The notes under the pieces: model-generated
Told to the model about the DNA's origin: nothing
Seen by the model: only the letters and a program-made list of their open reading frames with translations
The model's database searches: none
Source: an uncultured Deferribacteres bacterium
Lineage (GTDB): Bacteria; Zhuqueibacterota; JdFR-76; DREG01
Reading direction: 5' to 3'
NCBI GenBank assembly: GCA_913009825.1
Contig: CAJVYQ010000032.1
Coordinates: 1-57,019 of the forward strand
Length of the DNA stretch: 57,019 bases
Program-made: the position numbers and the translations under genes
Shown: one piece after another, positions 6,223 to 35,259 of the stretch
Layout: each line of letters opens with the position of its first letter
Position numbering within the stretch: position 1 is the stretch's first letter

Positions 6223-6729
6223 TTGATTCAAGAATTAATGAAACGAGGGATTTTCCTTTTGAATATCGAATGGTTGATTTCACAGTACGGTATCCATCTG
6301 ACGACTTTCATTGTTTGCCTGATCAGTGGCTTCATTCCCGTTGTTAATGCAGAACTTTATTTGGTGGCGGTGTCGGCACTTTCCTCGAAATCTGCGGCAA
6401 TCTATCTTGTTTTTATTTCCAGCAGTAGTCAAATGATTGCCAAAGCCATTATGTATCTCACCGGGAGAGGAAGCCTGAAATTACCCTTCAAAAGGCGTAA
6501 CGGAAAGCTGGAGGAGGTTCGGAAAAAATTTGCGAACTGGGAAAATAGAACGTACTTGTTTATTTTTATCAGCGCATCTACCGGTTTTCCTCCCTTTTAC
6601 TTTGTCAGTATTTTGGCCGGGATGCTAAAATTGAACTTCAAAATATTTTTAGTCTTTGGTTTTTTAGGAAGATTTGTGAGATTCTCTTTAATAGTCCTTT
6701 TCCCACAGCTTCTCAAAGGAATTTTTTGA
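6223..6729 (+). CDS. VTT-domain (SNARE-associated, YqaA/DedA-like) membrane protein
   Basis: An integral membrane protein of up to 168 residues. A hydrophobic segment with GFIPVVNAELYLVAVSAL (about 36-53), a second helix, a basic loop (LPFKRRNGKLEEVRKKF) and an FIFISASTGFPPFYFVSILAG segment fit the VTT fold found in YqaA and DedA proteins, now linked to lipid scrambling or transport. The start is uncertain: TTG 6223 and ATG 6238 lack a good ribosome site, whereas TTG 6259 has GAGGG ten bases upstream. Its stop overlaps the ATG of the broken phospholipase D-like gene (TGATG at 6727-6731), so the two were translationally coupled. That suggests a shared role in phospholipid handling. Confidence 0.7.
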   Translation: MIQELMKRGIFLLNIEWLISQYGIHLTTFIVCLISGFIPVVNAELYLVAVSALSSKSAAIYLVFISSSSQMIAKAIMYLTGRGSLKLPFKRRNGKLEEVRKKFANWENRTYLFIFISASTGFPPFYFVSILAGMLKLNFKIFLVFGFLGRFVRFSLIVLFPQLLKGIF

Positions 6730-7324
6730 TGGACATTCAAATCCTTGTTGACTCAAGTGAATTTCGGAACAATCTGAAAGGGTATATCTCCGCGGCAAAG
6801 AAACACGTTTTTCTGTAAACTTTTTCTCCGGAGGGCGATCGTGTCGGCATTATGTTGTTTGATTTGCTTTCCGCCATGAATTCTGTTGACACCCGGATTT
6901 TGGTTGATCCGTACACAAAATTCATGATCAGCGACAAATTCATCTACTCTCCCAAAACCCTGTTTGATCCCGAATTAATCCGGGAAGCAAAAGCAACCTA
7001 CGGTATGATAAAGCATCTCCGGGAAGAGGGAGTCGGCGTAAAATTTACAAAATCCCATCACACTAAATTAAAGGAATTCTTTGCCCGGGATCACAAAAAA
7101 TCAGTTATCATCGATGATATAATTGCCTATATCGGGGGAATAAATTTTTGCGATCACAATTTTTCCCGGCATGATATGATGGTCAGGATTAAAGATGAAT
7201 CCGTGGCACGGTTCCTGAAAGAGGATTTTTACAAACCTGGAACGGGAAGAATAATAGTTCGGGAAAGCAATTTGAGCGGATCAACCGCAACGGCGTTTCC
7301 GTTACACTTGTCACACCGGAATAA
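6729..7324 (+). pseudogene. Phospholipase D / cardiolipin synthase-like gene, broken
   Basis: Translation from ATG 6729 gives an N-terminus that stops at TAA 6816-6818. The same frame then continues with TFSPEGDRVGIML, DTRILVDPYTKF, an intact HKD motif (HKKSVIID), and AYIGGINFCDHNFSRHDMM. Family members read VFLQTFS at the stop, so one C-to-T change (CAA to TAA) explains it. Near 7250 the homology moves to another frame (KQFERINRNGVSVTLVTPE) and ends at TAA 7322. The second HKD half is absent. It is therefore a pseudogene with a nonsense codon, a frameshift and a C-terminal truncation. It overlaps the VTT gene stop, and the remaining frame runs openly into the next gene. Confidence 0.85.
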
Positions 7325-7346
7325 TCACAATCTGAAAGGAGTTGTC

Positions 7347-8747
7347 ATGAAAACTAAAAATTTTAGTTTGTTCATTTTTGTCCTGTCTCTCATACTTCCC
7401 ATTATTCTTCTTTCACAGACCGGGGGGAAAATCATATCACTCAGCCAATCTATTGGCACCGAAATTGATCCGGCTGAAAAAGAGTTTTACCAACTTTTCC
7501 CGGATATTGAAAGATTCCAATCGGCGCAGATTACCGAATTGCCCGGCGGGAAATATCGGATCGATTTTACCGTAAAGGATGAATTGGGGGTTCATCAAAA
7601 ATCCCGCAAGGTATCTGCGGAAGCGATCGAACTGACCCGATTGCATATTCAGCTAACCGATGAGTATGCGGCATTGAGCAAAACGGAACTGAAGGCAAAA
7701 GAGGCCGAGATGCTTTACCGCCTGGCTCTGAAATATGCCGCGCGAAAAAAATACAATGTTTCTTCCCTGCTTTTCAAAGATATCGTTTCTGATTATCCTC
7801 AATCGGATTATGCAGCGAGAGTAGAAAATTACCCGGAACAAACGGATCTCCTGTGGAAATCTAAAAAGGCGCTATTCCGGCGCGGCTCGCTGACGGATCA
7901 AAGCGGGCGTACGGAAATATTAATCTTCAGCGGTTATTACGGGTTATGGCTGGGGATTGCCACTCCTGTTTTCCTCGAAGCAAATTCACCTCAGGCCTCT
8001 GCTTTGGGTTTGCTTGTGGGCGGTCCTTTATCTGTGATGTTCACAAATGCAATTACAAAAGAAGTAAATATGAGCGATAGCCGGGCAACCATGATTTCCT
8101 TGGGGGGACATTTGGGTACCTGGCAGGGGATCGGATGGACAATTGTCGGGAATAGCGAAGGCAGTACCGTTATCGGAACGGGAGAAATATTAGGGTTGGC
8201 GGGAATTACCGCATCGGCGCTGCTGACCAATAGATTTGACTTTTCTACCGGCCATGCCGAACTTACCAGTTCCGGATTGCCGTGGGGCGCCTGGTTTGGT
8301 ATGGTTCTGGGGGGGATGGCGAAAATGAATGGTGACAATATTTTGCGCAGTATGCTGCTTGGCAGTGATGTCATGGTTTTGGGAACGGCATTGGCAGCTA
8401 AAAATGTACAGATGAGTAAAACCAGAGTGCGGCTCATTAATATGGCGGGAGCTTTAGGCGCGGTTTTTGGCTTTGGGGTGAATCTGTTGTTTGAAGTTGA
8501 TGATGCATCCGCGGCTTTTGCTATTGCCGGCGCTTCCAGCATTGCGGGATTGATAATCGGCAGGAACATGACACGCAATTTTGATAAAGGTAAAGAAGTA
8601 ACACTGCTGAAATTGAAAAAAAATTTTGCTTACAAAAACGGTAACGGTGGAAAACGATTCATGATATCACCAAAATTATCTCTGCTGCAGTATCCGGTTG
8701 AAAGGAACCGGTATATCCCTGCTGCCGGTTTGCAGTTTGATTTTTAA
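7347..8747 (+). CDS. Secreted or envelope protein of unknown function
   Basis: The 466-residue product starts at ATG 7347 behind AAAGGAG. Residues 1-24 are a signal peptide ending near LSQT. Residues 25-170 are soluble, helical and charged, with a TPR-like stretch around 110-150 (EAEMLYRLALKYAARKK, LFKDIVSDYPQSDYAARV). The second half consists of glycine- and alanine-rich hydrophobic segments interrupted by short polar loops, then a basic tail ending GLQFDF, which resembles an outer-membrane export ending. I do not recognise the family. The hydrophobic segments look more like membrane-inserted helices than beta strands. The open frame extends upstream through the broken phospholipase gene, but the signal peptide and ribosome site place the true start here. 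Confidence 0.65.
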   Translation: MKTKNFSLFIFVLSLILPIILLSQTGGKIISLSQSIGTEIDPAEKEFYQLFPDIERFQSAQITELPGGKYRIDFTVKDELGVHQKSRKVSAEAIELTRLHIQLTDEYAALSKTELKAKEAEMLYRLALKYAARKKYNVSSLLFKDIVSDYPQSDYAARVENYPEQTDLLWKSKKALFRRGSLTDQSGRTEILIFSGYYGLWLGIATPVFLEANSPQASALGLLVGGPLSVMFTNAITKEVNMSDSRATMISLGGHLGTWQGIGWTIVGNSEGSTVIGTGEILGLAGITASALLTNRFDFSTGHAELTSSGLPWGAWFGMVLGGMAKMNGDNILRSMLLGSDVMVLGTALAAKNVQMSKTRVRLINMAGALGAVFGFGVNLLFEVDDASAAFAIAGASSIAGLIIGRNMTRNFDKGKEVTLLKLKKNFAYKNGNGGKRFMISPKLSLLQYPVERNRYIPAAGLQFDF

Positions 8748-9088
8748 ACAACTGCATAAATTCGACATTCGACTTCGATGGTTTCGGGTTCAGAAATTCA
8801 TCGTTCAAAGTTTAAACCTAAAAACCTTTGCGCTCTTTGCGGCTCTGCGTTAAAAAAGAGGGTCAATAAACGCGGGGGACGCAGAAGCCGACCTTTTTTA
8901 AAAAGGCCGGCTTCTTGACCACCCCGGGGCGCTTCAGTGTCATTCCTGTTCTCAGCCCCGTTGTTAACCGCGGGGCGGTCTTGGTTAATTGCGTGTTCGC
9001 AAAGACCTAACCGAAACCTACTACTCTTGATTGTATTGCGATTCCCCCCCCGCTCCCTAAAAAATATTTTTACATTGCAAAAAAACAC
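8748..9088. other. Intergenic stretch with hairpins and repeat fragments
   Basis: No gene is visible. A fragment of the CTTTGCG/CTCTGCG repeat lies at 8823-8850. A strong hairpin at 8884-8914 pairs GAAGCCGACCTTTTT with its near complement. Positions 8920-9000 contain GC-rich palindromic pieces, including TTAACC facing GGTTAA. The hairpins may terminate transcription from the preceding gene. Confidence 0.55.
8884..8914. terminator. Strong hairpin, possible terminator
   Basis: GAAGCCGACCTTTTT (8884-8898) and AAAAAGGCCGGCTTC (8900-8914) pair over 14 of 15 positions with almost no loop. There is no clean T-run after the stem, so termination is only possible. It may simply be part of an extragenic repeat. 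Confidence 0.4.
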
Positions 9089-9117
9089 TTGACAAGATGT
9101 ATATTATGTTATACATT
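9089..9117 (+). promoter_or_regulatory. Sigma70-type promoter for the XRE regulator operon
   Basis: TTGACA at 9089-9094, a 17-base spacer and TACATT at 9112-9117 form a near-consensus promoter. The -10 box lies inside the first of three inverted repeats, an arrangement expected for autorepression. Confidence 0.7.
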
Positions 9118-9157
9118 GTGTATAGTGTCATATACATCTTGTATAGTGTGCTATTCA
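9098..9157. promoter_or_regulatory. Three phased operator sites
   Basis: TGTATA-N6-TATACA occurs perfectly at 9098-9115 and 9119-9136. A third copy, TGTATA-N6-TATTCA, lies at 9140-9157. The starts are exactly 21 bp apart, two helical turns, so all three face the same side of the DNA. They overlap the -10 box and the start of the transcript. The obvious ligand is the XRE regulator encoded 22 bp downstream. Confidence 0.75.
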
Positions 9158-9178
9158 CAATTAATATGGGAGGTATCT

Positions 9179-9394
9179 TTGAAGTTAGGGAATCATTTAA
9201 AACGTCTCAGGTTCGACGACAACAACCTGTCACAGGAGGCACTGGCTAAAGAGGTAGGCGTGATCCGTCAGACCATCATTTCAATTGAGAAGGGACGGTT
9301 TGTCCCCTCGACTTATTTAGCCTTAAAACTGGCGAAATATTTTAACAAACCGGTCGAGGAAATTTTTTACATCATTGAAGACAATGAAAACTAA
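9179..9394 (+). CDS. XRE-family (YozG-like) HTH regulator
   Basis: A 71-residue protein that is almost entirely one helix-turn-helix domain (QEALAKEVGVIRQTIISIEK, then FNKPVEEIFYI), the single-domain XRE type often paired with a membrane protein. TTG 9179 is the start because GGGAGG lies five bases upstream. A longer frame beginning at 9089 would put cysteine- and tyrosine-rich residues across the operator repeats, which is implausible. It probably binds the three operators and represses its own operon. The next gene, a four-helix membrane protein, starts 19 bp after the stop with its own AAAGGAG. Family call is firm; autoregulation is inferred from the operators. Confidence 0.9.
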   Translation: MKLGNHLKRLRFDDNNLSQEALAKEVGVIRQTIISIEKGRFVPSTYLALKLAKYFNKPVEEIFYIIEDNEN

Positions 9395-9413
9395 ATTGAA
9401 AGGAGATTGAAAA

Positions 9414-10416: not shown

Positions 10417-11007
10417 GTGGAAAAAATACGTATTTCCAGGAATGCGATTGTTGCAGCAGTAATCGGCGCGGTAGTTGGTTTTATCTTTAAAGCGCTGTTA
10501 GGTTCTCTGTTGCCTATTATCATCGGCGCAATTTTAGGACTGGTACTTGGCATGTTTCTTTTTCCGGCAAGCGGTAAGCGCCCGCAGATTGAGGTGGTGA
10601 AGACAACCGATCCTACGGAAAATTTATTGCGGGGACTGGTAATGTTCAACAAAAAACTCAGGTTAGACCCCTTTCTTCAGGAGGAAATTTTAGAAAAACT
10701 CGAAAAAATAGTTGATAAATTGGCTGAGATTGTTCCGCGCAGCAACAAAGAGCATCCCGGATCGGAATTAACCTATGTAGCTAACCGGATGGTAACAAAC
10801 TATCTGCCGGAATTGCTGGACCCTTATCTGGACTTATCGCCGCAAGCGAGGGAAGGCGAATTGGCTAAATTGATGAAAACGCTGCATTCGCTGGAAGAGG
10901 AGATTGACAATATCATCAATTTGGTGGATCAGCGAAAAGTCAATGAATTCCGGGTGCAGGACACTTTTCTGCGTCATAAATTTCATGAAAAGAGTGTGGA
11001 AGCTTGA
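10417..11007 (+). CDS. XpaC-like membrane-anchored protein
   Basis: The 196-residue product begins with two close transmembrane helices (about 9-28 and 30-48, small-residue rich) followed by a cytosolic helical domain. The segment ANRMVTNYLPELLDPYLDL near residue 127 matches the YYLP-type core of XpaC, the protein named for 5-bromo-4-chloroindolyl phosphate hydrolysis. XpaC genes usually sit next to telA, as here: TelA starts 58 bp downstream. The start is GTG 10417 behind GGAGG. TelA/XpaC pairs are associated with tellurite and envelope stress resistance, though the biochemistry is unclear. The assignment rests on the one motif plus context. Confidence 0.6.
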   Translation: MEKIRISRNAIVAAVIGAVVGFIFKALLGSLLPIIIGAILGLVLGMFLFPASGKRPQIEVVKTTDPTENLLRGLVMFNKKLRLDPFLQEEILEKLEKIVDKLAEIVPRSNKEHPGSELTYVANRMVTNYLPELLDPYLDLSPQAREGELAKLMKTLHSLEEEIDNIINLVDQRKVNEFRVQDTFLRHKFHEKSVEA

Positions 11008-11065
11008 TCTGTAAAACAAAGGGATCAATCGGAAAATCAGGAAAAATATAGAAGGAGAGATGAAT

Positions 11066-12202
11066 ATGAATGAAACGAATAGCGGCGCACAAACCACAGC
11101 AATTGTTCCCAAAGCGCCGGAGGCCCTGGAATTAAAGGAGCAACAGGAGCTCGAAATAAAATCAGGCGAACTGGTTGAAAAATTAGAGGGCGGCAAAAAC
11201 CGGGAACTGGTTCGGCAGCTGGAAAATCTGGGCGCGGATGCTCAGGCCGGCGCCGCACGGGAAACGGAACTGCTGAAAGTGCGCGTGGGCGAAATGATGA
11301 AGCAAATCGACGGCAAAGGTTCGGCAATTCCGAATGGAATGGTAAAACTCAGGATGACGCTGGATGAGATCAATCCCCATGTTTTAAGTCAGCCCGGGAA
11401 ATTTGGGCGACTGCTTGGCAAAACGCCGGCAATCGGTAAAATTCTCAAAAAAATTGCCATCAAATATGAATCGGTGCAAACCCAGATCGATGCGATTGTG
11501 GCCAATTTGCGCGCGGGCGGGGAGATGCTGGAAAAAGACAATATTTCGCTGGATCAACTTTACGAACAGGTGAAACAGCATCAATTGGCTGTCCAAAAAA
11601 ACGCCTATCTGGGTGAACTGATTCTGAACAAACTGGTGGAGAAACTAGTAACCAGTTCTCCGGAAGAGAAGCCGAAATTGGAAGCGGTGCAGCATGCGGT
11701 AGCCATGCGTGTGCAGGATTTACGCACCATGGAGCAGGTGAATTACCAGTTTTTCGTCAGCATTGATATGACCATCGACAACAATCGCCTCCTCAAACAA
11801 TCTGTTGGTCGCACCATCACCGTAACCACCGGTTTGCTGACCGTAGGGCTGGCTATTCAGGCGGCGCTCTCCCGGCAGAAACAGGTGCTGGAAGCAACCA
11901 AAGCAACACAGGAATACGCAGCGGATTTACTGCAGGCCAATGCGGCGGCTATTCGCCGGCAGAGTGCGGAAATCGGCGATCTGTACACCAATCCGGTTTT
12001 AGCCCTGGATAAGGTGAAAAAAGCCCACGATGATTTGCTGGCCGCCATCGAAGAGACCGAAGCAGTGAAGAGAAAAGGCGTGGAAAAAGCAAATGAAGGG
12101 ATTAAGGCGTTGACGGAAATGTCCCGCACCATGTCGCAAAAAGCAGGCGCTTTACGCCCGGAAGACAAGGAAGGTACTGCCGCGCCGTCGCTTGAGGCCT
12201 GA
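11066..12202 (+). CDS. telA: TelA/KlaA toxic-anion resistance family protein
   Basis: A soluble, almost wholly alpha-helical protein of 378 residues with the TelA pattern. It has a variable N-terminus, a core beginning INPHVLSQPGKFGRLLG, the repeated heptad-like helices QTQIDAIVANLRAGGEMLEK and LDQLYEQVKQHQLAVQKNAY, and a C-terminal helical stack. Length fits the family. ATG 11066 is preferred over ATG 11060 because AAGGAG lies at the right distance only for the former. TelA proteins are tied to tellurite, bacteriocin and cell-wall-antibiotic tolerance. It follows an XpaC-like gene and precedes the DUF4178 to K+ channel set, all on the same strand. A hairpin at 12331-12374 probably ends this two-gene transcript. 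Confidence 0.9.
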   Translation: MNETNSGAQTTAIVPKAPEALELKEQQELEIKSGELVEKLEGGKNRELVRQLENLGADAQAGAARETELLKVRVGEMMKQIDGKGSAIPNGMVKLRMTLDEINPHVLSQPGKFGRLLGKTPAIGKILKKIAIKYESVQTQIDAIVANLRAGGEMLEKDNISLDQLYEQVKQHQLAVQKNAYLGELILNKLVEKLVTSSPEEKPKLEAVQHAVAMRVQDLRTMEQVNYQFFVSIDMTIDNNRLLKQSVGRTITVTTGLLTVGLAIQAALSRQKQVLEATKATQEYAADLLQANAAAIRRQSAEIGDLYTNPVLALDKVKKAHDDLLAAIEETEAVKRKGVEKANEGIKALTEMSRTMSQKAGALRPEDKEGTAAPSLEA

Positions 12203-12330
12203 TCTGAATTTTCAAGCAGTCGATTTTGAATGAACGGCCCCGGACGAATAAAATGAGCGGCCTGTTGAATTTTAAAACGCAATCAGCCTTTGCTCACCGC
12301 CTGAATCGGACACACGCTCGGAATGGTCTC

Positions 12331-12374
12331 AAAAGAAAGCCACAGTTCGACTCCGCTCACGATGGCTTTCTTTT
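12331..12374 (+). terminator. Hairpin downstream of telA
   Basis: AAAAGAAAGCCA (12331-12342) and TGGCTTTCTTTT (12363-12374) are perfect 12-base complements around a 20-base loop. The arms end in A-run and T-run, so it can act as an intrinsic terminator on either strand. Confidence 0.6.
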
Positions 12375-12472
12375 GTAGCCGTCCACTCATTTAAGCAAGT
12401 TAAGGGTAAATTTAGTCGCAGACTGAATCCGTTTTAAAATTTTCATGCAAAATAACAAAAACGAGGTATTTT

Positions 12473-13156
12473 ATGGCACTGGATTTTCACAGCCGGTTAC
12501 GACTTGTCAGAATGTTTTCCAAACCGCTTCCGCCCAATGAGAGAGCCAATTTTTCTGTTACGGATGTTCACTCCGGCGGACTCCTGGATATTGAAGGCAA
12601 GGTTCATTACGTTGCCGGTAAAACGGAATATATGGAAGGCAAAACGCCCTATCAGGAGCTGGAACTGATCGATATAGATGACGGGAAAAAGAGATTCCTG
12701 GAATTCGGTGAGGAGGACGAGTTGGTGATCAACTTCTGGCACACAACCGGTATTCCGTTGTCCAAGTTAAAATTTGAAAGTGATTATTTTCTGGAAGATC
12801 ACGGCATCCCCGATGTCCGCGACATCAAACTGTTTCTTGATCTCTGCAATAAATACGATGACGGTGAAATTCAATATAATCATCAAATATTTTATTTCTA
12901 CGAAAGCCTGACGGCCACCTGGACCGGAAAAGGGAAAAAGGAGAGCCAGAAAGGATACAACGAACACCGTTACTGGGATTTCCTGCCTTTTGAATCCGAA
13001 GACGACACCGGAGTGGATTTTGATGTCCCTATTCTAAGCGTGGAACGGTGGTTCTCCGAAAAAGGGGCAGATGAGGACGAATTTGATGTGAATACCGGCT
13101 ACCGCATTCGGCCGGAGAAAATTTCTGTGCTAGCGCCGGGCAAGGAAGAGGAATAG
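12473..13156 (+). CDS. DUF4178 domain protein
   Basis: A 227-residue acidic soluble protein. Residues about 25-130 fit DUF4178, a small beta-rich domain: LLDIEGKVHYVAGKTEYMEG, then YQELELIDIDDGKKRFLEFG and a WHTTGIP segment. A second beta-rich section follows with FYFYESLTATWTGKGK and YWDFLPFES. DUF4178 genes recur next to DUF350, DUF2617 and membrane-linked spermidine synthase-like genes in diverse bacteria, and sometimes next to PspA-family genes; that neighbourhood is reproduced here. ATG 12473 follows GAGG. The next gene starts 6 bp after the stop, so they form an operon. Molecular function is unknown. Confidence 0.65.
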   Translation: MALDFHSRLRLVRMFSKPLPPNERANFSVTDVHSGGLLDIEGKVHYVAGKTEYMEGKTPYQELELIDIDDGKKRFLEFGEEDELVINFWHTTGIPLSKLKFESDYFLEDHGIPDVRDIKLFLDLCNKYDDGEIQYNHQIFYFYESLTATWTGKGKKESQKGYNEHRYWDFLPFESEDDTGVDFDVPILSVERWFSEKGADEDEFDVNTGYRIRPEKISVLAPGKEEE

Positions 13157-13162
13157 CTGATT

Positions 13163-13765
13163 ATGTTTCAGATGACTCCTGAAATATATGTGGATCAATC
13201 CGCTGCAATGTTGCGCCATACGATTGTGGCGGGGAAATTGGACTTGAACCAGTTCAAAATTCTGATAACAGACGAGATATTTTCCCAAACTCCCAAATTT
13301 ACTTTGACGGGAAGGATCATCGGCGCCAGTCATCTGCTCTCTTTTGAAATCAACGGCCAACAATATCACGAGATTTTTGCCTGCACGGGTTTTGTGGCGG
13401 AGGGCGACGAAATCGCTTCTTACGGGCCGTTGGGCAAAATCAGCGCCAATATGACCCTGAGACTGGACAGCACTACAACCTACTCTTTCAGCTCTCAAAC
13501 CCTTGATTCTGAAACTGCGGCGGCGTGGCTCGCCGTTTTTGAGGAAGAGACAAAGCAACTGAGAAAAAAGGGAGGAACACTTTCATTGGGCCTGCACTAC
13601 GATTTTCCGCGGGATGAAATCACCCGGCAGATTCCAAAAACCATAGTGCAGGCACGGTTCAGGCCGGAAAAAAACCGCATGGAAATTGAAACGGCGCATT
13701 CTTACTCTAACGAGCAAAAAATTGTACGCAGCGAAAGTATTTTAAAATTTGCAGACGGATTATAA
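13163..13765 (+). CDS. DUF2617-like protein
   Basis: A 200-residue soluble protein. The pattern GRIIGASHLLSFEINGQQ, then HEIFACTG, a YSFSSQTLD strand, and near the end AHSYSNEQKIVRSES follows the layout I recall for DUF2617: GASH, E-x-x-AC, a strand with TL, and a C-terminal H-x-Y segment. That family is found in actinobacterial operons with DUF4178, DUF350 and spermidine synthase-like genes. The same partners are present here, which supports the call. It lies 6 bp after the DUF4178 gene and 3 bp before the next one. No catalytic residues can be named; the conserved His and Cys are possible functional positions. Confidence 0.55.
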   Translation: MFQMTPEIYVDQSAAMLRHTIVAGKLDLNQFKILITDEIFSQTPKFTLTGRIIGASHLLSFEINGQQYHEIFACTGFVAEGDEIASYGPLGKISANMTLRLDSTTTYSFSSQTLDSETAAAWLAVFEEETKQLRKKGGTLSLGLHYDFPRDEITRQIPKTIVQARFRPEKNRMEIETAHSYSNEQKIVRSESILKFADGL

Positions 13766-13768
13766 CAG

Positions 13769-14416
13769 ATGACGCGAAAACGTTACAGTTTGAATAGTGA
13801 AGATAGAATCCGGTACGCCGGAATTTTACTGCTCCAGTATATGGCAAAACAGAAGAATGAATTTCCCCTTTTGCTTAGCGGGAATAATTTGCAGTTGGAA
13901 CCCATTCTTCAACAGTTGGTAAAACACGGTTTTGTTGCCGTGATAAATGAAAGATATGTGTTAGCGGAGAATGGTCGCGAAGAATTAGTAGCCTTTCAGT
14001 CCGGTTATACGGATTTTCTGAAAGAGTTCGAAGTCTATCAAGCGGTCGATTTAACAGCCGGTGAATTTGCCTGGTCTGCTTATTTCGATTTCGACGATGA
14101 GGAAGAATTTCAGCGATTTCTAAATGATGAAAGATGGGAAGATGTGCGTTTTGCCGTGCTGGAGTACAAAAATCAAAAAAAGTTTTTTAAAAGGAACCGG
14201 CTGAAGGGGGAAGAAATAGTTTTCATGTCGTTTCTGAATGAAAACCGGTTCGATTTTACCGAAACCGGATGGCAGGAGAAACTGTTAGCCGGCCGGATTT
14301 GGGATGAAATATTGGATATTTGCAACGGGATGCTGCAGTGTCAGGATCTGGGCGGAGAGGATGTAATCGAAGACATCATTGATCAGGGGGAGAGATTAAC
14401 AGAAGAGCTTTCGTAA
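13769..14416 (+). CDS. Unknown protein in DUF4178/DUF350 operon
   Basis: A 215-residue acidic soluble protein that I do not recognise. Residues 1-75 look like a winged-helix fold (EDRIRYAGILLLQYMAKQ, LQLEPILQQLVKHGFVAV, then YVLAENGREELVAF). The remainder is rich in aromatic and acidic residues, with YFDFDDEEEFQRFL and a helical C-terminus. It starts 3 bp after the DUF2617-like gene, without a strong ribosome site, suggesting translational coupling. A lipoprotein gene follows after about 50 bp. A regulatory or adaptor role in the module is possible, but nothing in the sequence proves DNA binding. Confidence 0.6.
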   Translation: MTRKRYSLNSEDRIRYAGILLLQYMAKQKNEFPLLLSGNNLQLEPILQQLVKHGFVAVINERYVLAENGREELVAFQSGYTDFLKEFEVYQAVDLTAGEFAWSAYFDFDDEEEFQRFLNDERWEDVRFAVLEYKNQKKFFKRNRLKGEEIVFMSFLNENRFDFTETGWQEKLLAGRIWDEILDICNGMLQCQDLGGEDVIEDIIDQGERLTEELS

Positions 14417-14467
14417 TGTTCATTTAAACGCAATAGAGAATTTTAACATAAACAAGGAGATAGAATT

Positions 14468-15295
14468 ATGAAGAATCACAATTATCTCGTATTGCTGCTC
14501 ATGACGGCCTTTCTCTTTTCCATCGTCGGCTGCAATGACAATTATTCCCGCACGGATACTCGCATAACGGCTTATGCAGCAGACGGCCTGGATTTGAAAG
14601 CGGTCGGGGAACTTTTGAAGACGGCCAAAGATGCCAAAGACCTGGAAAAAAAGCTGAACAAACCCGGCGGTGTGAATAATCTTGATCTGGATGAAGATGG
14701 GAAAGTGGATTTCATCAAAGTTGCCAGCGCAGATCAGCAGGGCATCCGGGTGATGAAGCTGAGCGCTATGCTTTCCGGGAGCGGTGACTTGCAGGATGTT
14801 GCCACCATCGAAATTGAAAAGAGTAATCAAAATGCAAATGTTCAGATCCGCGGCAACGAGCAAATTTATGGTAGTAATCATTATTATCACTCAAGTTTTG
14901 GTCTGACGGATGCGCTGATTTTATACTGGCTGTTCGGGCGCAGCTACAGGCCCTACTACTCACCGTGGGGCTGGGGCAGTTATCCCGGTTATTACGGCCG
15001 TGGTTATGCGCCGGTGCCGGTAAGAAACTACCGGACACGCACCGGTACACTGGACAGAAAATCCACCTTTGCACGCTCAAACAGAAACCGTCTTTCCAGA
15101 GAAGTCGCACCCTCTTCCCGAAATGTTTCTTCCAGAGTGAAGGCGCCTTTAAAGCGACCCACATCGAGCCAAAAAGCGTTTCAGGCAAGAAATCCGTCCA
15201 AACAGGTTCGCCGTGGCGGTTTTGGTTCCAGAAGCACCCGGACAACCCGGTCTTCACGCTTTTCCAGAAGCCGCAGTTCCCGTTTTGGTAAATAA
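14468..15295 (+). CDS. Lipoprotein with Ca-binding-like loop and Arg/Ser-rich tail
   Basis: A lipoprotein signal ends at Cys22 (FSIVGC). A D-x-D-x-D-G loop (LDLDEDGKVDFIKV, about 76-89) resembles an EF-hand or thrombospondin-3 calcium loop. A hydrophobic, aromatic segment (about 140-160) leads into a Tyr/Gly/Pro-rich stretch, then a strongly basic, low-complexity tail rich in Arg and Ser (about 190-275). In related operons of other phyla a small lipoprotein with a Gly- or Arg-rich tail occupies the same place beside DUF350 (for example the YjfM or DUF4247 type). I infer an analogous envelope role, not homology. AAGGAG precedes ATG 14468; DUF350 follows 31 bp later. Confidence 0.65.
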   Translation: MKNHNYLVLLLMTAFLFSIVGCNDNYSRTDTRITAYAADGLDLKAVGELLKTAKDAKDLEKKLNKPGGVNNLDLDEDGKVDFIKVASADQQGIRVMKLSAMLSGSGDLQDVATIEIEKSNQNANVQIRGNEQIYGSNHYYHSSFGLTDALILYWLFGRSYRPYYSPWGWGSYPGYYGRGYAPVPVRNYRTRTGTLDRKSTFARSNRNRLSREVAPSSRNVSSRVKAPLKRPTSSQKAFQARNPSKQVRRGGFGSRSTRTTRSSRFSRSRSSRFGK

Positions 15296-15326
15296 ATATC
15301 GTATAAACTGATTGGAGGAGAATTCC

Positions 15327-16172
15327 ATGATTCAGGATATCATTACAGATTCGTGGCAAATGGTGTGGTTTGTTGTGGAAGCGCTGCTAATCGCTTTCAT
15401 CGGCATTTTTCTTTTCGATGCACGAACCAAATTCGATGAAAACAAACTGGTCATCGAAGACAGCAATTTAGCCGTTGCCTTGCGGAAAGGCGCCATTTTG
15501 CTCGGACTGGGCATAGGATTGTCCAGCTCCCTTGCCGGCCCGGTTGAACACTTGTGGCGCGACACACTGGATGTAGCTATTTACGGTGTGATTACACTGA
15601 TCTGCCTGTTTGTTGCCGGTTGGATCAATGATAAGTTTTTGTTAACCGGTGTGAAAAATGACACTGAGATTGAAGCGGGAAACAGCGCAGTTGGGTTTTT
15701 TGAGATTGGCAGCTATTTGGCAACCGGAATGATTTTAAGGGAATCGCTTGCCGGTGAAAACGGCTCCATCTTGAATGCACTCATTTTCTTTTTAGAGGGG
15801 CAGCTTGCGTTGATCATTTTCTTCAAACTTTACGAATGGGTTACGCCGTACAATTTGGTCAATCTGGTGAAAGACCGCAATGATGCTGCCGGTGTGGCCG
15901 TAGGCGCCATGATGACTTCGCTTGGTTTTATCCTGGCCGCCGGCATCGCCGGTCCGTACACCGGACTTTGGCAGGATGTGCTCGCCATCGCTGTCGCCGC
16001 GGTTCAGGGAATTATTTTGTTGCTGTTGGTCCGGCTGATAGCTGCCCGCCTGTTTTTGCCGAAGGCCAGTCTGCAGGAGGAGATTGTGCGCGACCGTAAC
16101 GCCGCCGCGATAGTTCAGATGGATGGTTTCATCATTGCTGCCGCTTTGCTTATTGCAGCAGTAGTGCTGTGA
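15327..16172 (+). CDS. DUF350 family membrane protein
   Basis: A 281-residue membrane protein with the internal duplication typical of DUF350 (YjfL relatives). There are about eight helices. Repeated signatures are FDARTKFDENKLVIEDSNLA followed by AVALRKGAILLGLGIGLSS, and later VKDRNDAAGVAVGAMMTSLG and IVRDRNAAAIVQMDGFIIA. ATG 15327 is the start because GGAGGAG lies just upstream; a TTG at 15312 would place that site inside the gene. DUF350 proteins are proposed membrane-stress components, and their genes recur with PspA-type, spermidine synthase-like and glutathionylspermidine synthase genes. A transport role has been suggested but not shown. Here it links the lipoprotein to the spermidine synthase-like gene. 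Confidence 0.85.
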   Translation: MIQDIITDSWQMVWFVVEALLIAFIGIFLFDARTKFDENKLVIEDSNLAVALRKGAILLGLGIGLSSSLAGPVEHLWRDTLDVAIYGVITLICLFVAGWINDKFLLTGVKNDTEIEAGNSAVGFFEIGSYLATGMILRESLAGENGSILNALIFFLEGQLALIIFFKLYEWVTPYNLVNLVKDRNDAAGVAVGAMMTSLGFILAAGIAGPYTGLWQDVLAIAVAAVQGIILLLLVRLIAARLFLPKASLQEEIVRDRNAAAIVQMDGFIIAAALLIAAVVL

Positions 16173-16542
16173 TTGTGAATGATGAGTAAACAGTGGATAT
16201 CAAAAATGCCGAATGAACAAATTATCAGCCTTGCTAAATTTACAAAGGATGCAAATAAATTTGTCAGTAAGCTAAATATGTAAAAACCGCTGATTTTAAC
16301 CAAAAATGGAAACTGAATAGTAATTTTTAGAGAACACCCCCCGTACCCCCCCCTCAAGGGGTGACTTTAGAAATCCCCCCTTTGAGAAGGGTATGGGAGT
16401 GTAAATAATCGCCGACTTTAAATATGAACCTGAATCTTTACAAAAAATCGTTTTAAGAGATACCAGATAAATTAATACTCTACTCACATATCCAACCCGA
16501 TTCCCTCTTTTCCTTCCCCGTTGAGCAGATGATGGATTTTTT
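16173..16542. other. Intergenic stretch with CCCCT-rich palindrome
   Basis: No gene is visible. Positions 16329-16405 contain C-runs and G-runs that fold back on each other (CCCCTCAAGGGG, then CCCCCTTTGAGAAGGG). This is an extragenic repeat found in many genomes as a hairpin. It separates the DUF350 gene from the spermidine synthase-like gene and may attenuate transcription. Confidence 0.5.
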
Positions 16543-18348
16543 ATGGCAACGATAACAAGACCTGAAGACAGACAAAACAGAACCGCCCGCTGGTACATTG
16601 CTTCTTCCATGTTTTTAACCGGCCTGTGCGGTTTTGTTTTCGAGTGCATCCTCAGCACATCCGCTACACATATTTTCGGCAATTCCACCAAAGAATGGTC
16701 ATTCACTATCTCGTTCATGATGCTGACCATGGGACTTGCCAGTTATCTGCAAAAATTCAAATCGTTCATGAAAAATGAAAAGCTCATCGAAAAATTCATC
16801 ATCATTGAGATGAGTCTGGCGATTTTGGGGGCCTTTGCACCTCTGCTACTGTTTACCACACACGCTTTTGCACCGGAGAAAGTTGGGGTCATTCAGGTAT
16901 TGCTGGTTGGCGGCATCGGTTTTCTTATTGGGCTGGAGATACCGGTTGCACAGCGGATCAACGAGCGCTATGCCAGTTTGGCTAAAAATATTTCCGATAC
17001 GCTGGCGCTGGATTACTTTGGCGCTTTTGTCGGCGCGCAACTGTTTTACAGATTTTTCCTCAAAGAAATTCCTCTGGAGCAGATCAGCTTTGTTGTGGCG
17101 GGGTTCAATTATCTGGTGGCGGTGATGGCCTTTCTCTATTTTTACCGCAGCGGGAGTTTACAAAACATCCGCCAAACCCGTGTGCTGATCGGTGTTACGG
17201 CTGTGGTTTTGCTTGCCGGGTTTCTGATTACGCCCAAAATCACTATGTCCGAACGGCAGAAGTTCTTTCGCGATCACATCGTGGTGGAGAAACAGACGGA
17301 GTACCAGCATATTGTGGTGACGCAAAATCCCCGTACCCAAGAATACGACCTGTTTTTAAATGCCCATTTGCAATTTTCCGGTGACGATCAGGAACGTTAC
17401 CATGAACCGCTGGTTCACCCGGCAATGGCTTTGCGCCTGGCGGAAAACCGGCAGGATAGTTTGAATGTGCTCATTTTAGGCGGCGGCGATGGCCTGGCAG
17501 CCAATCTTGTGCGGCGATATGCCAATGTGAAATCCATCACACTGGTGGATATCGACCCGGAAATGGTGAAATTCTGCGCCACCCGGCCTGAAGTGACCCG
17601 CTACAATCAGGATGTGTTCAGAGATGCAAAACTGGCTGTGCTGCGCTCGGGTGCCATTGTTCCGGTGGATACGATCCCGCTTTTTTACGAAAATGAAAGC
17701 GCCGGCGACAACAGAGAATTGTATCGTCGGGAAGAAATCACGAAAGTGGTTGATTTCAAGCTGAAAATTGATAAATTATTTGCGGAATTGACGGATCCCG
17801 CAGCAACACCCCAATTCATCGTTTTGAATTATGACGCCGACCGGTTTGTTGATAAAGTGAAAAACCGCAAATGGGATGTGGTGATCATCGATTTCCCGGA
17901 TCCGCAAACCATTGAGTTAGCCAAGCTGTACAGCTATGAATTTTATGTGAAAGTGCACAGCGTGCTGGCAAAGAATGGCGTTATCGTAACGCAGGCGACG
18001 TCTCCCTATTACGCCAAAGATGTTTTTCTCTGCATCAAAAGAACCATGGAGGCGGCGGGTTTTAAAACCATTCCGTATCAGGGATTTGTGGGCAGTTTTG
18101 GCGGCAATTGGGGCTGGATTATCGGCCATACATTTTCAGCAGTCGAATTGGCGCGAAGAATGGCTTTTTTCAAAGACAACCGTTCGTTTGCGGTAAAAAC
18201 AAGATATCTGACGCCGCGCATGTTTCCCATGATGCAACTGTTTGGCAAAGAAGATCTGATTGCCGATGAATTCCCCGGTGTCATCAATTATCTGACCTCA
18301 ACCCCCACGCTGGATATAATCTACGAAAAAGCATGGAAAAAAATTTAA
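16543..18348 (+). CDS. Membrane-fused spermidine synthase-like protein
   Basis: Residues 1-230 carry about seven transmembrane helices. Residues 240-600 form a spermidine synthase fold with LILGGGDGLAANL (SAM-site GGGDG), ITLVDIDPEMV, and the IIDFPDPQTIE motif in place of the usual DSTDP, then LYSYEFY and a TSPYYAKD segment. The predicted reaction is aminopropyl transfer or a related polyamine modification at the membrane. An unusual insertion of about 60-70 residues lies between the VDID strand and the DADRF segment. The K+ channel gene follows 170 bp later. Substrate is unknown; a non-polyamine methyltransferase-fold activity remains possible. Confidence 0.85.
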   Translation: MATITRPEDRQNRTARWYIASSMFLTGLCGFVFECILSTSATHIFGNSTKEWSFTISFMMLTMGLASYLQKFKSFMKNEKLIEKFIIIEMSLAILGAFAPLLLFTTHAFAPEKVGVIQVLLVGGIGFLIGLEIPVAQRINERYASLAKNISDTLALDYFGAFVGAQLFYRFFLKEIPLEQISFVVAGFNYLVAVMAFLYFYRSGSLQNIRQTRVLIGVTAVVLLAGFLITPKITMSERQKFFRDHIVVEKQTEYQHIVVTQNPRTQEYDLFLNAHLQFSGDDQERYHEPLVHPAMALRLAENRQDSLNVLILGGGDGLAANLVRRYANVKSITLVDIDPEMVKFCATRPEVTRYNQDVFRDAKLAVLRSGAIVPVDTIPLFYENESAGDNRELYRREEITKVVDFKLKIDKLFAELTDPAATPQFIVLNYDADRFVDKVKNRKWDVVIIDFPDPQTIELAKLYSYEFYVKVHSVLAKNGVIVTQATSPYYAKDVFLCIKRTMEAAGFKTIPYQGFVGSFGGNWGWIIGHTFSAVELARRMAFFKDNRSFAVKTRYLTPRMFPMMQLFGKEDLIADEFPGVINYLTSTPTLDIIYEKAWKKI

Positions 18349-18520
18349 TGCAGTTGTTCAGATATGCTCGCCGGTTGTTGCTTAGAAATTATTCTATTTC
18401 TGCCGGGCAGGGAAAATCGCTATCCGCCTCAGCCGGAGAATCGAAGCGTGATTATTGTTTATATGCAGGCCGCACCCGAATAGTAATGAAATAATGTAAA
18501 ACAGAATCAGGAAGTCCCGT

Positions 18521-19588
18521 GTGATCACTTTATTTTTACCGGAAAGAATCAGAAAAAAAATTGAGAACAATCAACCGGTTGTCTGGTTGATTAATCTATC
18601 GGTTGTGTTTATTCTTCTGTTTTTTTGCCATTTGCTACTCTACAGGATAATTGAACATGTCACCTGGGGAGACGCTCTTTGGGTCACGTGGGCTACGTTC
18701 AGCACCGTCGGTTACGGGGATATTTCGGCAAAATCTACTTTGGGACGGTTGATCTCTATTTTGATGGGAACCACGGGAATTGCGTTGCTGGGCACTCTGT
18801 TCGCCGCCGTTTTTGAGGCGATTCAATACAGAAAAGATCAAAGGAGGTTTGGATACATGGAAAACCCTTTTAAAAACGGATATATCATTTTTCACTATCC
18901 GGGCGAAAATACGTTGAAGTTGTTCCTGCGGGAAATAAGTGCCGTTGAAGGAAAAATAGGCGTCTGTGTGATCGATGAAAGTGTTGAGCAATTGCCAACC
19001 GGAATTGTGCAGGAATTTAACGGCAAAGTTCATTTTATCCGTGGCAGCAGTCTGAACAAACAAACGTACCAGCGGGCAAAAATTGCGCAGAACAAAGCAG
19101 TGATCATTTTTCCCAAGGATCCAACCTCAAGCGATTCCGACGGCACTACCAACACGGTGGTAAAACTGGTTCTCTCTTTTGTAGCAGAGAAAACCCGCGT
19201 CCTTTACATCTTAGTGGATCAGAAAAATGCCTGGATGTTTGATAAGCGGGCGGTTTCCGTTTCGCAAGATCTGGAGATTCTTGCCATTGTGCAGGAGTGC
19301 CAGGATCAGGGAACAGCTATTATGATTGAACGACTGCTCATGAATACAAAAGGGGCCAATCCTAGAAGCGTAGTGCCGCAAAAAATTATCGGCTACACCT
19401 GGCAGCAGCTTCAACTTGGTTTGGCGCAGAGGGAAATACACGCAAATCCCCTTGCTCTGATTCACGACGGCGAACCGGATTCCTGCCCGAATCCCCGCAC
19501 AACTATTCAGGATGGCGACCGCATTTTGATCGCCGCCCATGCCGATGAAGACTGGGGGAAAATTGAAGCACAATTGGTGTCGCAATGA
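18521..19588 (+). CDS. Two-helix potassium channel with C-terminal RCK-like region
   Basis: A 355-residue protein. One helix at about 23-45, a pore loop with the K+ selectivity filter TVGYGD (about 65-70), and a second helix at about 76-100 form a KcsA-type pore. The cytosolic remainder has the length of one TrkA-N/RCK_N plus RCK_C unit. However, the first strand reads NGYIIFHYPGENTLKL, without the GxGxxG nucleotide loop, so NAD/ATP binding there is doubtful. GTG 18521 is the start, with AGGAAG upstream. Single-pore channels of this type recur beside DUF350 and spermidine synthase-like genes; polyamines block K+ pores, so a functional link is attractive but inferred. Confidence 0.85.
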   Translation: MITLFLPERIRKKIENNQPVVWLINLSVVFILLFFCHLLLYRIIEHVTWGDALWVTWATFSTVGYGDISAKSTLGRLISILMGTTGIALLGTLFAAVFEAIQYRKDQRRFGYMENPFKNGYIIFHYPGENTLKLFLREISAVEGKIGVCVIDESVEQLPTGIVQEFNGKVHFIRGSSLNKQTYQRAKIAQNKAVIIFPKDPTSSDSDGTTNTVVKLVLSFVAEKTRVLYILVDQKNAWMFDKRAVSVSQDLEILAIVQECQDQGTAIMIERLLMNTKGANPRSVVPQKIIGYTWQQLQLGLAQREIHANPLALIHDGEPDSCPNPRTTIQDGDRILIAAHADEDWGKIEAQLVSQ

Positions 19589-30379: not shown

Positions 30380-33300
30380 TTAATTGTAAGTTCTTGATAA
30401 ATTATCGTTCAAGTTTATTGTATCGGTTTGCCTTCCTTCCTTTTTATTCTCAACCGCAATAATTATGTCATCATCAATATTTGATGTTCTTTTTAAAATT
30501 ATTTCCAAATAATCACTACCAATTTTTCGTCTTAAACTTTCTACATTATATATTAATTTATCGTACGGTTCATTGCCGGATTTTTCGGGTAAAACGAGTT
30601 TTCTTAATGTATATTTCGGTAATGTTTTATATCGTTTTATATCTTTTAACAAAGTATCGATAAACGAAATAAGTGTTTGATTTAATTCGTCTTTCTTTTG
30701 TTTTAGTAAAGATTTCAAACTATTTATTGCTTTCTTTTCTAATGCAATTTCAGAACTACCCGAACTATATTGCGGTTTATACTCTTTAATTTTTTCATAA
30801 GCTTTCCAGAATTGTTTACTCAACGGAAGTCTTTTTTCCTCATAAGAACATTTTACCAAATTAAACAATTCCTGAAATGTTGTTTCTGAAATTTTAATTT
30901 TATCAGTTTCATAATTTGCAATTACCGAAAACAAAGCCATCCCTTTTTTCCGCAGAACCACTGTATTTTCTTCTGTATAAGCTTTTGCTGTTTTTGTTCG
31001 GTTGGGGAATTCTTTTATTCTATCAAGTACTTCCGGGTGTTTTTCCCGTATTTTGTTATACTCATTTCTAACAATAGTTACAATATTCAAATCATCCTTT
31101 TCATCCGGATTTGAATTTATTTTTTTGAATAAACCGCTTGCTGTTGGTTCTTCGTCAGGGTCAAGTATTTTTGCATCTTCGCCAAGCGCATTATGAATTA
31201 AAAACATTTTTTGTTCTGCAATTTCCCTGATTTTAACCTGATTAGCGCCTTGTTCGGTAGGGAAGAAATTGTAGATATAAAGTTCCTCAAATACTTTTGT
31301 TCCAATACGGTTTATACGACCGACACGTTGAATTACCCGCGTGGGATTCCACGGAATATCATAATTGATTGTTAAGCCTGCCCGGTTCAGGTTGACACCT
31401 TCCGAAAGTTTATCACTGGTAACCAAAACATCGTAGTCGTCCTTTTGTTCCTGGTATTTTGCATTGAAATTTGTATCTAATTCAACTGCAAATTTTTTAG
31501 TAATACTGCCGTCACAAAATAAAACTCTGCCCAATAATTCTTTATTAAAATAATCTTTCAAATGGCGAACCGTGTCGGCATATTCCGTAAATAAAATGAT
31601 TTTTCTTTTCGGATTATTTTCCTGGCTTAAAACTTTTTTTACTTCATTTAAAACTGTTTTTCGTTTGGGGTCATCATTGACCAAATTAAGCGCTTTTATT
31701 TCCCTTTTTATCTGTTCAAATAAAGCGATATCATTATCTATATCTTTTAAAAATTTATCTTTAAATTCAAATTTATCTATTTCATAAATTTTAGTGTGTT
31801 TAGGCGACGTTTTACCTTCGGCATTCCTTTTAAATTCTTTCAAAGCTTCTTCAATAGCTTCCATTGTAAAGTCACCGGCACCATCTTCGTCATTGTAGAT
31901 TGAATCTATCACTTTACGGTCTAAAACATATTTCCCTGAACTTTCAATAAATGATTTTACCATTTTATGTGTTCGTAAAAAGCGTTCAATACTTTTATTA
32001 AAAGCGCCAAAAGAACTTTCAAATCGTTTTACTAACAGTCGCCGCATAAAGTCGAATAAGTTACGTTGTTGTTGATAGGTTCTGTTTGCTTCCTCGTCTT
32101 TTTTCTCTTTTGGTTTGGTCTCATATTCAAAAGGCCGGTAAATAGAACCTTTAAATAGCCCGTCTTCGCTGAAATAATCTTTAATTATTCTGTCGTAAAA
32201 TTCCGACTGTTCTTTGCTTAATTCATAAAACAATTCTAGCGGATCTTTTGCATCCGACAGGTTTTGTATCTCTTTTTTATATTCAAAGTCGCTCTTCAGG
32301 TCTAAGCGGTTCCGTCTGATAATTACAGGTGTGATCACATTTTTTATATCGTTTGCCATTAAAGCAACATTTTCTTTTACAAGAGAAATATCAACAGGCG
32401 GTTTAAGACCAAACATTATCGTATAATTTTTTTCTGCTTTTAGTCTCTTTTCAGGATTTGTAGAATGGTAATTTTTTAGAATAAAAGAAAGATTTCTGAA
32501 TCTGTAATTATATGAATTAAATCTACCTTCCAAATCCGGTTCGATAGTTATGCCCGATTGGCCGGGAACAATAAACAATTTGAGTAAAGAAAAAATATCT
32601 GCAGGCGAATTGTTAAAAGGCGTTGCCGTTAATAAAATAACCTGTCTTCCTCTGCAAATATCTGCCAATGCCTCATAAGCCGAAGTATCCTGGTTGCGGA
32701 ACCGGTGTGCCTCATCAATAATAACAACTTTATATTCCAAGTTATTTTTTCGGACAGATTCGGCTAACGCTTCAATGTTTCCGGAGCTTTCAATATCCCA
32801 ATCGTATAATTTGAATTTATTCCAATACTCATACCAACCCGAATTTTCTTTCTTATCACCTATTAATCCGGGCGGGCAAAGAATTAAGCCTCTTTTTCCC
32901 AATTGATTGGCAATGAGTGAAGCAACAACCGATTTTCCAAGTCCAACCACATCTGCAATAATAACGCCGTTATAGGTTTCAATAATATTTAACGCCTGAT
33001 TCACTGCATCTAACTGATAGGTATATTTTTCAAAACCATTTTCTTCAAGAATCCGGTCAATAAAAGAATTGATCTTTTTGTTTTCTTGTAAATCAATATA
33101 GGTTTTTAAAATATATGCATAGGCTTCGTATGGAGTAATTAAAGATGATTGGGTTCTATTTTTTAGAAAATCAATTATTGCTTTTTTACCGTTTTCGGCT
33201 TCGGTTATTGGTATGGCAGATTCCCAAAGTTCGTCAAAATAGTTTTCTGCCGTATCAAATCCATAATCTCGAATTTCAACATTAAATTCTTCCTGTCCGT

Positions 33301-33802
33301 GCAAACCCGCTTTGGTAAGATTACTGCTGCCGGTTATAAATTGTCCTTTTGTATTAAATAAGTCTTGAAATTGGCTGTCTAATTTAAATATATAAACCTT
33401 GGCGTGATTAGGGTTAATAGTTTTTTTGATGATTAATCTTTCGTCTTCCAAAAGTTTGATGAAAAATTCTATTTGATTGTAAAACTCTTCATTATCCATT
33501 TCGGCGTTGTTGATAGCATAACCGAGTGATTTAATAAATTGTGTAAAATATTCTTCCCTGCTTAAACTATTATCTTTATTTTCAACTTCAACAATACCGG
33601 AGAGATATTTATCTACTTTTAAACCAACCAATATCTTCAAAATAATAGTATCGTTTTTTCGCAGATTTTTATATATTTCCTGCCAACCGGAGAAGTAAAA
33701 GAAACCAACCAAAAATTTTAGTTCGCTGCTTGCACTTATCAATTTTTGCAAACGATTTTTTAATGATATTGTTTCTTTGGAGTTGGTTATAAAATTATTC
33801 AT
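30380..33802 (-). CDS. PLD-nuclease/SNF2-helicase fusion of a defence module
   Basis: A 1140-residue protein. The N-terminal domain has one phospholipase D-type HxK site (NHAKVYIFK, His133 and Lys135) with GSSNLTKAGL, a likely nuclease. A superfamily 2 helicase follows: Walker A ADVVGLGKS (283-291), DEAH (363-366), LLTATPFNNSP, and the C-terminal DKLSEGVNLNRA and IQRVGRINRIG motifs. The last 300 residues are helical. With the N6-adenine methylase about 1.6 kb upstream on the same strand it would form a restriction-modification-like system: methylase marks self, helicase-nuclease cuts. The layout recalls DISARM components (SNF2 helicase, PLD, adenine methylase), but drmA and drmB are absent. 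Confidence 0.85.
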   Translation of the reverse strand: MNNFITNSKETISLKNRLQKLISASSELKFLVGFFYFSGWQEIYKNLRKNDTIILKILVGLKVDKYLSGIVEVENKDNSLSREEYFTQFIKSLGYAINNAEMDNEEFYNQIEFFIKLLEDERLIIKKTINPNHAKVYIFKLDSQFQDLFNTKGQFITGSSNLTKAGLHGQEEFNVEIRDYGFDTAENYFDELWESAIPITEAENGKKAIIDFLKNRTQSSLITPYEAYAYILKTYIDLQENKKINSFIDRILEENGFEKYTYQLDAVNQALNIIETYNGVIIADVVGLGKSVVASLIANQLGKRGLILCPPGLIGDKKENSGWYEYWNKFKLYDWDIESSGNIEALAESVRKNNLEYKVVIIDEAHRFRNQDTSAYEALADICRGRQVILLTATPFNNSPADIFSLLKLFIVPGQSGITIEPDLEGRFNSYNYRFRNLSFILKNYHSTNPEKRLKAEKNYTIMFGLKPPVDISLVKENVALMANDIKNVITPVIIRRNRLDLKSDFEYKKEIQNLSDAKDPLELFYELSKEQSEFYDRIIKDYFSEDGLFKGSIYRPFEYETKPKEKKDEEANRTYQQQRNLFDFMRRLLVKRFESSFGAFNKSIERFLRTHKMVKSFIESSGKYVLDRKVIDSIYNDEDGAGDFTMEAIEEALKEFKRNAEGKTSPKHTKIYEIDKFEFKDKFLKDIDNDIALFEQIKREIKALNLVNDDPKRKTVLNEVKKVLSQENNPKRKIILFTEYADTVRHLKDYFNKELLGRVLFCDGSITKKFAVELDTNFNAKYQEQKDDYDVLVTSDKLSEGVNLNRAGLTINYDIPWNPTRVIQRVGRINRIGTKVFEELYIYNFFPTEQGANQVKIREIAEQKMFLIHNALGEDAKILDPDEEPTASGLFKKINSNPDEKDDLNIVTIVRNEYNKIREKHPEVLDRIKEFPNRTKTAKAYTEENTVVLRKKGMALFSVIANYETDKIKISETTFQELFNLVKCSYEEKRLPLSKQFWKAYEKIKEYKPQYSSGSSEIALEKKAINSLKSLLKQKKDELNQTLISFIDTLLKDIKRYKTLPKYTLRKLVLPEKSGNEPYDKLIYNVESLRRKIGSDYLEIILKRTSNIDDDIIIAVENKKEGRQTDTINLNDNLSRTYN

Positions 33803-33884
33803 GTTTTTTTCTTCTTTCGCCGCGAATGCACTAATATTTTTTTATCTCTAAATTAATAGCTTGCATTTTATGTTAATAATTTAT

Positions 33885-34365: not shown

Positions 34366-34377
34366 TTAGATAAATTT

Positions 34378-35223: not shown

Positions 35224-35259
35224 ATCATTCCTCAATTTATTTTATAACTTCCGAATGTA

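Follow-up and report, generated by a model that had tools for sequence, protein, structure and literature searches.

A run of nine co-directional genes in an uncultured Deferribacteres bacterium combines TelA, of the toxic anion resistance family, and a small membrane protein with DUF4178, DUF2617 and DUF350 proteins, a 215-residue protein referred to here as U215, a lipoprotein, a membrane-fused SpeE-like enzyme and a K+ channel. The DNA analyzed (the window; CAJVYQ010000032.1, 57,019 nucleotides) makes up one whole contig (57 kb) of G000, a draft genome of 5.1 Mb that is 96% complete. We favor, with moderate confidence, the reading that these genes are an operon for membrane maintenance (envelope stress) and belong to the polyamine-linked phage shock protein (PSP) kind, with TelA and its small membrane partner in the place of PspA and a CesT-like chaperone. 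Ravi et al. 2024 (PMC11237479) have already described most of the module, as polyamine-linked PSP envelope-stress variants; the TelA pair is the unusual part of the operon. The simplest reading is a single module with an exchangeable submembrane effector, which may be PspA-CesT, a band-7 protein, DUF4247 or, here, TelA with its small membrane partner. That this slot can be exchanged is known from the DUF4247 and band-7 variants in that paper, and we also see an SPFH protein in Novosphingobium.

An initial annotation of the window had proposed an envelope stress system, which fits these published relatives as well as the Lia/Ces regulation of xpaC-telA pairs in Firmicutes (PMC12791056, PMC3139573). 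It had also regarded the TelA pair as an addition to the module, and our surveys bear this out as unusual.

Conservation of the nine-gene block

All nine open reading frames (ORFs) are present on the + strand of the window, from 10417 to 19588 (Table 1). The comparison genome G002, from another genus of the same family and 98% complete, carries the identical nine genes with order and strand kept, at 45-77% identity. When all window ORFs were compared by BLAST with the 17-kb G002 locus, the matches were those nine genes and nothing further, and the flanking genes differ. Synteny with unshared flanks indicates that the block is a conserved unit, with the ends that the initial annotation had given it. 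Pfam matches were obtained for each of the DUF4178, DUF2617, DUF350, spermidine synthase and K+ channel families named there. For the lipoprotein, which had been described as carrying a Ca loop, a conserved DxDxDG(x)2[DE] motif was found and a full EF hand was not; the protein matches no Pfam family.

Table 1 Features of the nine-gene block and of the TelA-DUF4178 gap.
Feature	Coordinates	Strand	Evidence
Small membrane protein, 196 aa	10417..11007	+	N-terminal hydrophobic hairpin, C-terminal soluble domain; TelA partner
TelA, toxic anion resistance family, 380 aa	11060..12202	+	PF05816 3.4e-47
Perfect 13-bp inverted repeat, 20-nt loop, TTCGACTCCGCTCA core	12330..12375		TelA-DUF4178 gap; z -3.5
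DUF4178 protein, 227 aa, predicted cytosolic	12473..13156	+	PF13785 6.5e-7, above cut-off
DUF2617 protein, 200 aa	13163..13765	+	PF10936 6e-14
U215, 215 aa, N-terminal winged helix and helical C-terminal domain	13769..14416	+	AlphaFold 2 model; 80 loci
Lipoprotein with DxDxDG(x)2[DE] loop, 275 aa	14468..15295	+	Lipobox-type N-terminus, Cys22 invariant; loop conserved
DUF350 (YjfL-like) membrane protein, 286 aa, about 8 transmembrane segments	15312..16172	+	PF03994 1.3e-48; hydropathy
SpeE-like aminopropyltransferase, N-terminal membrane domain, 601 aa	16543..18348	+	Spermine_synth Pfam 9.6e-27
Two-transmembrane K+ channel with RCK domain, TVGYGD filter, 355 aa	18521..19588	+	Ion_trans_2 7e-14; MthK/BK matches

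Spacing within the DUF4178-DUF2617-U215-lipoprotein-DUF350 run is 3-51 bp. Two gaps break the run, one of 270 bp between TelA and DUF4178 (12203-12472) and one of 370 bp between DUF350 and SpeE (16173-16542), the latter measuring about 100 bp in G002. A C-rich, repeat-like stretch (CCCCCTCAAGGGG..., 16330-16390), present as a single copy in the window, lies in this second gap. The first gap contains the palindrome of Table 1, which looks like a terminator or a repetitive extragenic palindromic (REP) element. The corresponding gap of G002 (8690-9400 of locus L007) spans 697 bp and contains three copies of the TTCGACTCCGCTCA core around a frameshifted GIY-YIG nuclease reading frame; to judge from this debris, a REP-type repeat seems to have been inserted in the gap. 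The REP palindromes and the broken nuclease gene of G002 are arranged as if they were a small mobile unit. Judging from sequence, the TelA pair is likely co-transcribed with the other seven genes, and all nine may share one transcript.

TelA, its small partner and an Alteromonas plasmid

TelA scores 161.6 bits against PF05816, where the cut-off is 30, and its family membership stands; no hydrophobic segment was found in its 380 residues. Of 82 genomes from the phylum, G000 and G002 are the two in which TelA exceeds the curated cut-off, each time inside this operon. The accompanying label of XpaC for gene 1 did not hold, since its 196-aa product has no XpaC-type match in Pfam (even at E<=10) or NCBIfam. 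We therefore rejected membership in that family and retain the name as a positional analogy only. Immediately upstream of telA, G002 has a homologue of gene 1 (70%), and so does the Alteromonas plasmid described below.

The analogy is to the xpaC-telA (yaaN) pairs of Firmicutes, envelope-stress genes regulated by LiaSR/CesSR, and a Listeria telA mutant shows raised nisin sensitivity (PMC12791056, PMC3139573). There too a small partner gene lies upstream of telA and the pair is under envelope-stress regulation. The Firmicutes pairs differ in standing alone, and the window's small protein lacks a detectable XpaC sequence match.

The decisive case outside the phylum is the Alteromonas mediterranea plasmid pAMCP48-600 (L148). 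It carries speE and speD, followed by genes for a 169-aa XpaC-like protein, TelA, a DUF4178 protein, a lipoprotein of 510 aa and a DUF350 protein; SpeE, SpeD, TelA, DUF4178 and DUF350 were confirmed by Pfam. Five of these genes (XpaC-like-TelA-DUF4178-lipoprotein-DUF350) are in window order, and telA and DUF4178 overlap by 1 nt. TelA (9e-21) and the small partner (E=1e-9) are homologous to those of the window and DUF4178 is also related; the 510-aa protein is lipoprotein-like at its N-terminus and, in its C-terminal part, has a short motif in common with the module lipoproteins. The plasmid locus differs from the window in having SpeD, in lacking DUF2617, U215 and the channel, and in sequence, with identities of 24-36%. 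Co-occurrence of these families beyond the window genome, on which the initial annotation had staked its proposal, was thus found in G002 and in this plasmid operon. Within the limited set of papers searched, no publication was found on the plasmid locus or on TelA together with DUF4178, and TelA goes unmentioned in the main text of Ravi et al. 2024 (PMC11237479).

Beyond the window phylum, the TelA module was sampled through phylum searches and plasmids. In the phyla of loci L036 (labelled Deltaproteobacteria, 297 genomes), L042 (Verrucomicrobiota, 289) and L066 (Bacteroidota, 296), TelA is rare or absent, and in the stretches inspected none adjoins module genes. Two further phylum searches for TelA, run without a positive control, were empty, and a search of viral contigs for relatives with which to extend the TelA alignment found none. 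A TelA tree, built to look for a module-specific clade, grouped window and G002 firmly and left Alteromonas unplaced; with long branches and one misframed row, it was discarded as evidence.

These observations bear on the alternative that the TelA pair is an independent tellurite/toxic-anion or antimicrobial-peptide tolerance unit, a chance neighbor of a polyamine/DUF350/K+ channel operon. Independence would accord with a 270-bp gap holding a terminator-like palindrome, with the position of TelA beside TerD or other genes elsewhere in bacteria, and with the occurrence of TelA at none of the 80 U215 loci surveyed below. We nonetheless consider it unlikely, given the same gene order in G002, the telA-DUF4178 overlap within one gene run on the Alteromonas plasmid, the confinement of TelA in the phylum to this operon, and the repeat and nuclease debris that suggests insertion into the G002 gap.

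PspA-type relatives and U215

PspA (PF04012) is absent from the nine genes, as the initial annotation had observed, and no match was detected in the G000, G001 or G002 genomes; among the nine proteins there is likewise no family match to a CesT/Tir-like chaperone and none to DUF4247. Ravi et al. 2024 (PMC11237479) describe operons of CesT/Tir-PspA, membrane-fused SpeE, DUF350, lipoprotein and DUF4178, and others that combine DUF350 with a K+ channel and a lipoprotein that chelates metal. Their variants lacking PspA have DUF4247 with DUF2617, or a band-7 protein, instead of the dyad. With the second CesT group described there (e.g. AAN56744-AAN56747), whose lipoprotein is of the Ctha_1186 type, the window shares DUF4178, the presence of a lipoprotein, an eight-transmembrane DUF350 and membrane-fused SpeE; it differs in having TelA and the small membrane protein instead of PspA/CesT, and in additionally having DUF2617, U215 and the K+ channel. 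With the DUF2617/DUF4247 variant of the same paper (e.g. CCP45394/CCP45395), it shares DUF2617, DUF350 and the lack of PspA, and a K+ channel is listed for that group; the window operon, however, has neither DUF4247 nor S-adenosylmethionine (AdoMet) decarboxylase and carries the TelA pair.

PspA-type operons are also found in the window's own phylum, where G015, G034 and G030 carry DUF4178-lipoprotein-DUF350-SpeE-channel-DnaJ-like-CesT-like-PspA. Verrucomicrobia and others have SpeE-lipoprotein-DUF350-U215-channel-CesT-PspA-SpeD-AAA, and a Novosphingobium plasmid carries an operon of the band-7 type, SPFH-DUF4178-DUF4178-DUF350-SpeE-oxidoreductase-SpeD. The Verrucomicrobia-type operon (L042, L049 and others) resembles the window in its lipoprotein, DUF350, U215 family protein, channel and SpeE, whereas PspA, CesT, SpeD and an AAA ATPase stand there and TelA, the small membrane protein, DUF4178 and DUF2617 in the window. 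The window DUF4178 protein can be aligned with those of PspA-type operons, and the lipoprotein aligns weakly with its counterparts in them (19-21% identity). In L041 and L043, both labelled Calditrichota, the CesT-like and PspA genes are separated by a gene resembling RNA pseudouridine synthases (PF00849, tested in L043).

U215 had been taken for an unfamiliar addition to the module, and this proved wrong. A scan of a genome collection with a six-member alignment returned 104 relatives, of which 80 were kept, in records labelled Bacteroidetes, Verrucomicrobia, Calditrichota, Deltaproteobacteria, Nitrospinia, Cloacimonadota, Chloracidobacterium and others. On the same strand and within 4 kb, the 80 loci have a lipoprotein gene at 69, PspA at 62, DUF350 at 29, a CesT-like gene at 25, a channel at 25, SpeE at 23, SpeD at 20 and TelA at none; Pfam confirmed PspA, CesT, SpeD and AAA members in a sample of these neighbors. 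The PspA and lipoprotein counts make U215 an ordinary, unnamed member of PspA operons, kept here when PspA was not, and the PspA count also upholds the earlier statement that parts of the module recur in other phyla, sometimes with PspA; relatives there often carry it. In G049 (L077, labelled Calditrichota), a genome of the window's phylum, U215 accompanies a channel, a CesT-like protein, PspA and SpeD.

U215 matches no Pfam family. Its AlphaFold model, built from 33 sequences (predicted local distance difference test score, pLDDT, 94), shows a winged helix at the N-terminus and a helical domain after it, and a Foldseek search of the PDB returned weak winged-helix matches only, none below E 0.08. 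A three-gene minimal operon of lipoprotein-PspA-U215 is seen in L052, L053, L066, L082 and other Bacteroidota (Mucilaginibacter, Pedobacter, Chitinophagaceae); this trio is unmentioned in the passages of Ravi et al. 2024 (PMC11237479) that were consulted. One U215 match, in a metagenome-assembled genome recorded as Actinomycetota (L037), is the same as that of G048:C303 from the window's phylum, and the record is likely mislabelled.

The SpeE-like enzyme, a proposed mechanism and competing explanations

The SpeE domain is fused to an N-terminal transmembrane region in the 601-aa protein. It passes NCBIfam NF002956 (polyamine aminopropyltransferase) with 482 bits against a cut-off of 472, and in an alignment with PDB sequences it keeps the GGGDG, YHE and DxPDP (D-x-x-DP) motifs. 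At residues about 364-425, between the VDIDP and NYDAD motifs, there is an insert of ~60 residues that G002 and G042 share and that the SpeE proteins of PspA-type operons in the phylum lack. AdoMet decarboxylase is not detectable in the window genome, which leaves the donor of the enzyme and the 'polyamine' label for its product uncertain and makes the polyamine-like molecules of the initial annotation weaker than they appear; its suggestion that membrane potential is sensed is unsupported. The channel, to judge by its sequence, is of the RCK-gated K+ channel kind, MthK/BK-like.

We propose the following order of signaling, enzyme product and channel role. The lipoprotein, outside, and the DUF350 and SpeE membrane proteins would report a change in the envelope, and the SpeE-like enzyme would make or modify a cationic product at the inner membrane face. 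The winged-helix protein U215 and the DUF4178 and DUF2617 proteins might relay this state. The small membrane protein would tether TelA, which would assemble on the membrane as a coiled-coil effector, and the RCK channel would adjust K+ flux and hence membrane potential. That TelA performs the job of PspA is what we infer from its position and regulation. We hold more tentatively a specific form of this proposal, that TelA and its small partner substitute for PspA in function without being homologous to it, as a membrane-remodeling coiled-coil effector usable by the same sensor/enzyme/channel module.

Several observations weigh against the envelope-stress reading with TelA in the place of PspA. 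TelA was rejected as a PspA homologue (hhalign probability 0.5%, with a three-sequence profile), and a structure predicted from the single TelA sequence was unusable and discarded (pLDDT 44), so that a like function is inferred from position alone. The TelA module is seen in one family and one plasmid type only. In G033 (L117), another genome of the phylum, the module is represented by its SpeE-channel end, and no PspA, TelA, DUF4178 or SpeD was detected in that genome, so neither PspA nor TelA may be obligatory. The palindrome between TelA and DUF4178 could still terminate a transcript in the window genome. AdoMet decarboxylase (SpeD, PF02675) has no match in G000; at about 96% completeness, absences from this genome are strong and not absolute.

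A different emphasis would place metabolism at the core, the SpeE-like enzyme making a modified amine (or aminopropylating another substrate), DUF350 exporting or handling the product, and TelA and the K+ channel protecting the cell from the cationic load. The kept SpeE motifs and the NCBIfam match speak for this, as do SpeD in the operons of Verrucomicrobia, Alteromonas and Novosphingobium and the induction of Firmicutes YaaN by poly-L-lysine (PMC12791056). We judge it unlikely, given that SpeD was not found in G000 and gave a weak, partial match only in G002, and that the many Bacteroidota operons of lipoprotein-PspA-U215 have no such enzyme, which is therefore not an invariant core. An antiphage or other defense operon, with a membrane-depolarizing channel as effector, is highly improbable: a K+ channel and a membrane enzyme are present and the operon is about 11 kb from a restriction/helicase region, but no PADLOC match was obtained for TelA, U215 or the channel, and the close relatives are published PSP partners (PMC11237479).

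Other features of the window lie on both sides of the operon. A low-GC (32-36%) stretch on the - strand (30380-39222) is a probable defense island. It encodes a PLD-helicase similar to DrmD/HKD+Snf2, a Bro-N protein that matches the PADLOC candidate PDC-S13 (2.6e-133) and a methylase like those of type IIG restriction-modification. Upstream of the operon, a VTT-domain membrane protein is followed by a PLD-family protein (6223-8747), and a GPP34 (Golgi phosphoprotein 3 family) protein is encoded at the contig start (336-1022).

U215 is newly defined here as a recurrent partner of PspA in Bacteroidota, Verrucomicrobiota and other phyla, including the culturable Mucilaginibacter and Pedobacter. 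TelA is widespread yet unexplained, and its occurrence in the PspA position, with PspA-type partners, in two phyla leads to a concrete proposal for its role, membrane protection, which fits the Lia/Ces-type regulation of TelA in Firmicutes. If true, the reading of TelA as a PspA substitute would at last supply a cellular function for the 'toxic anion resistance' family.

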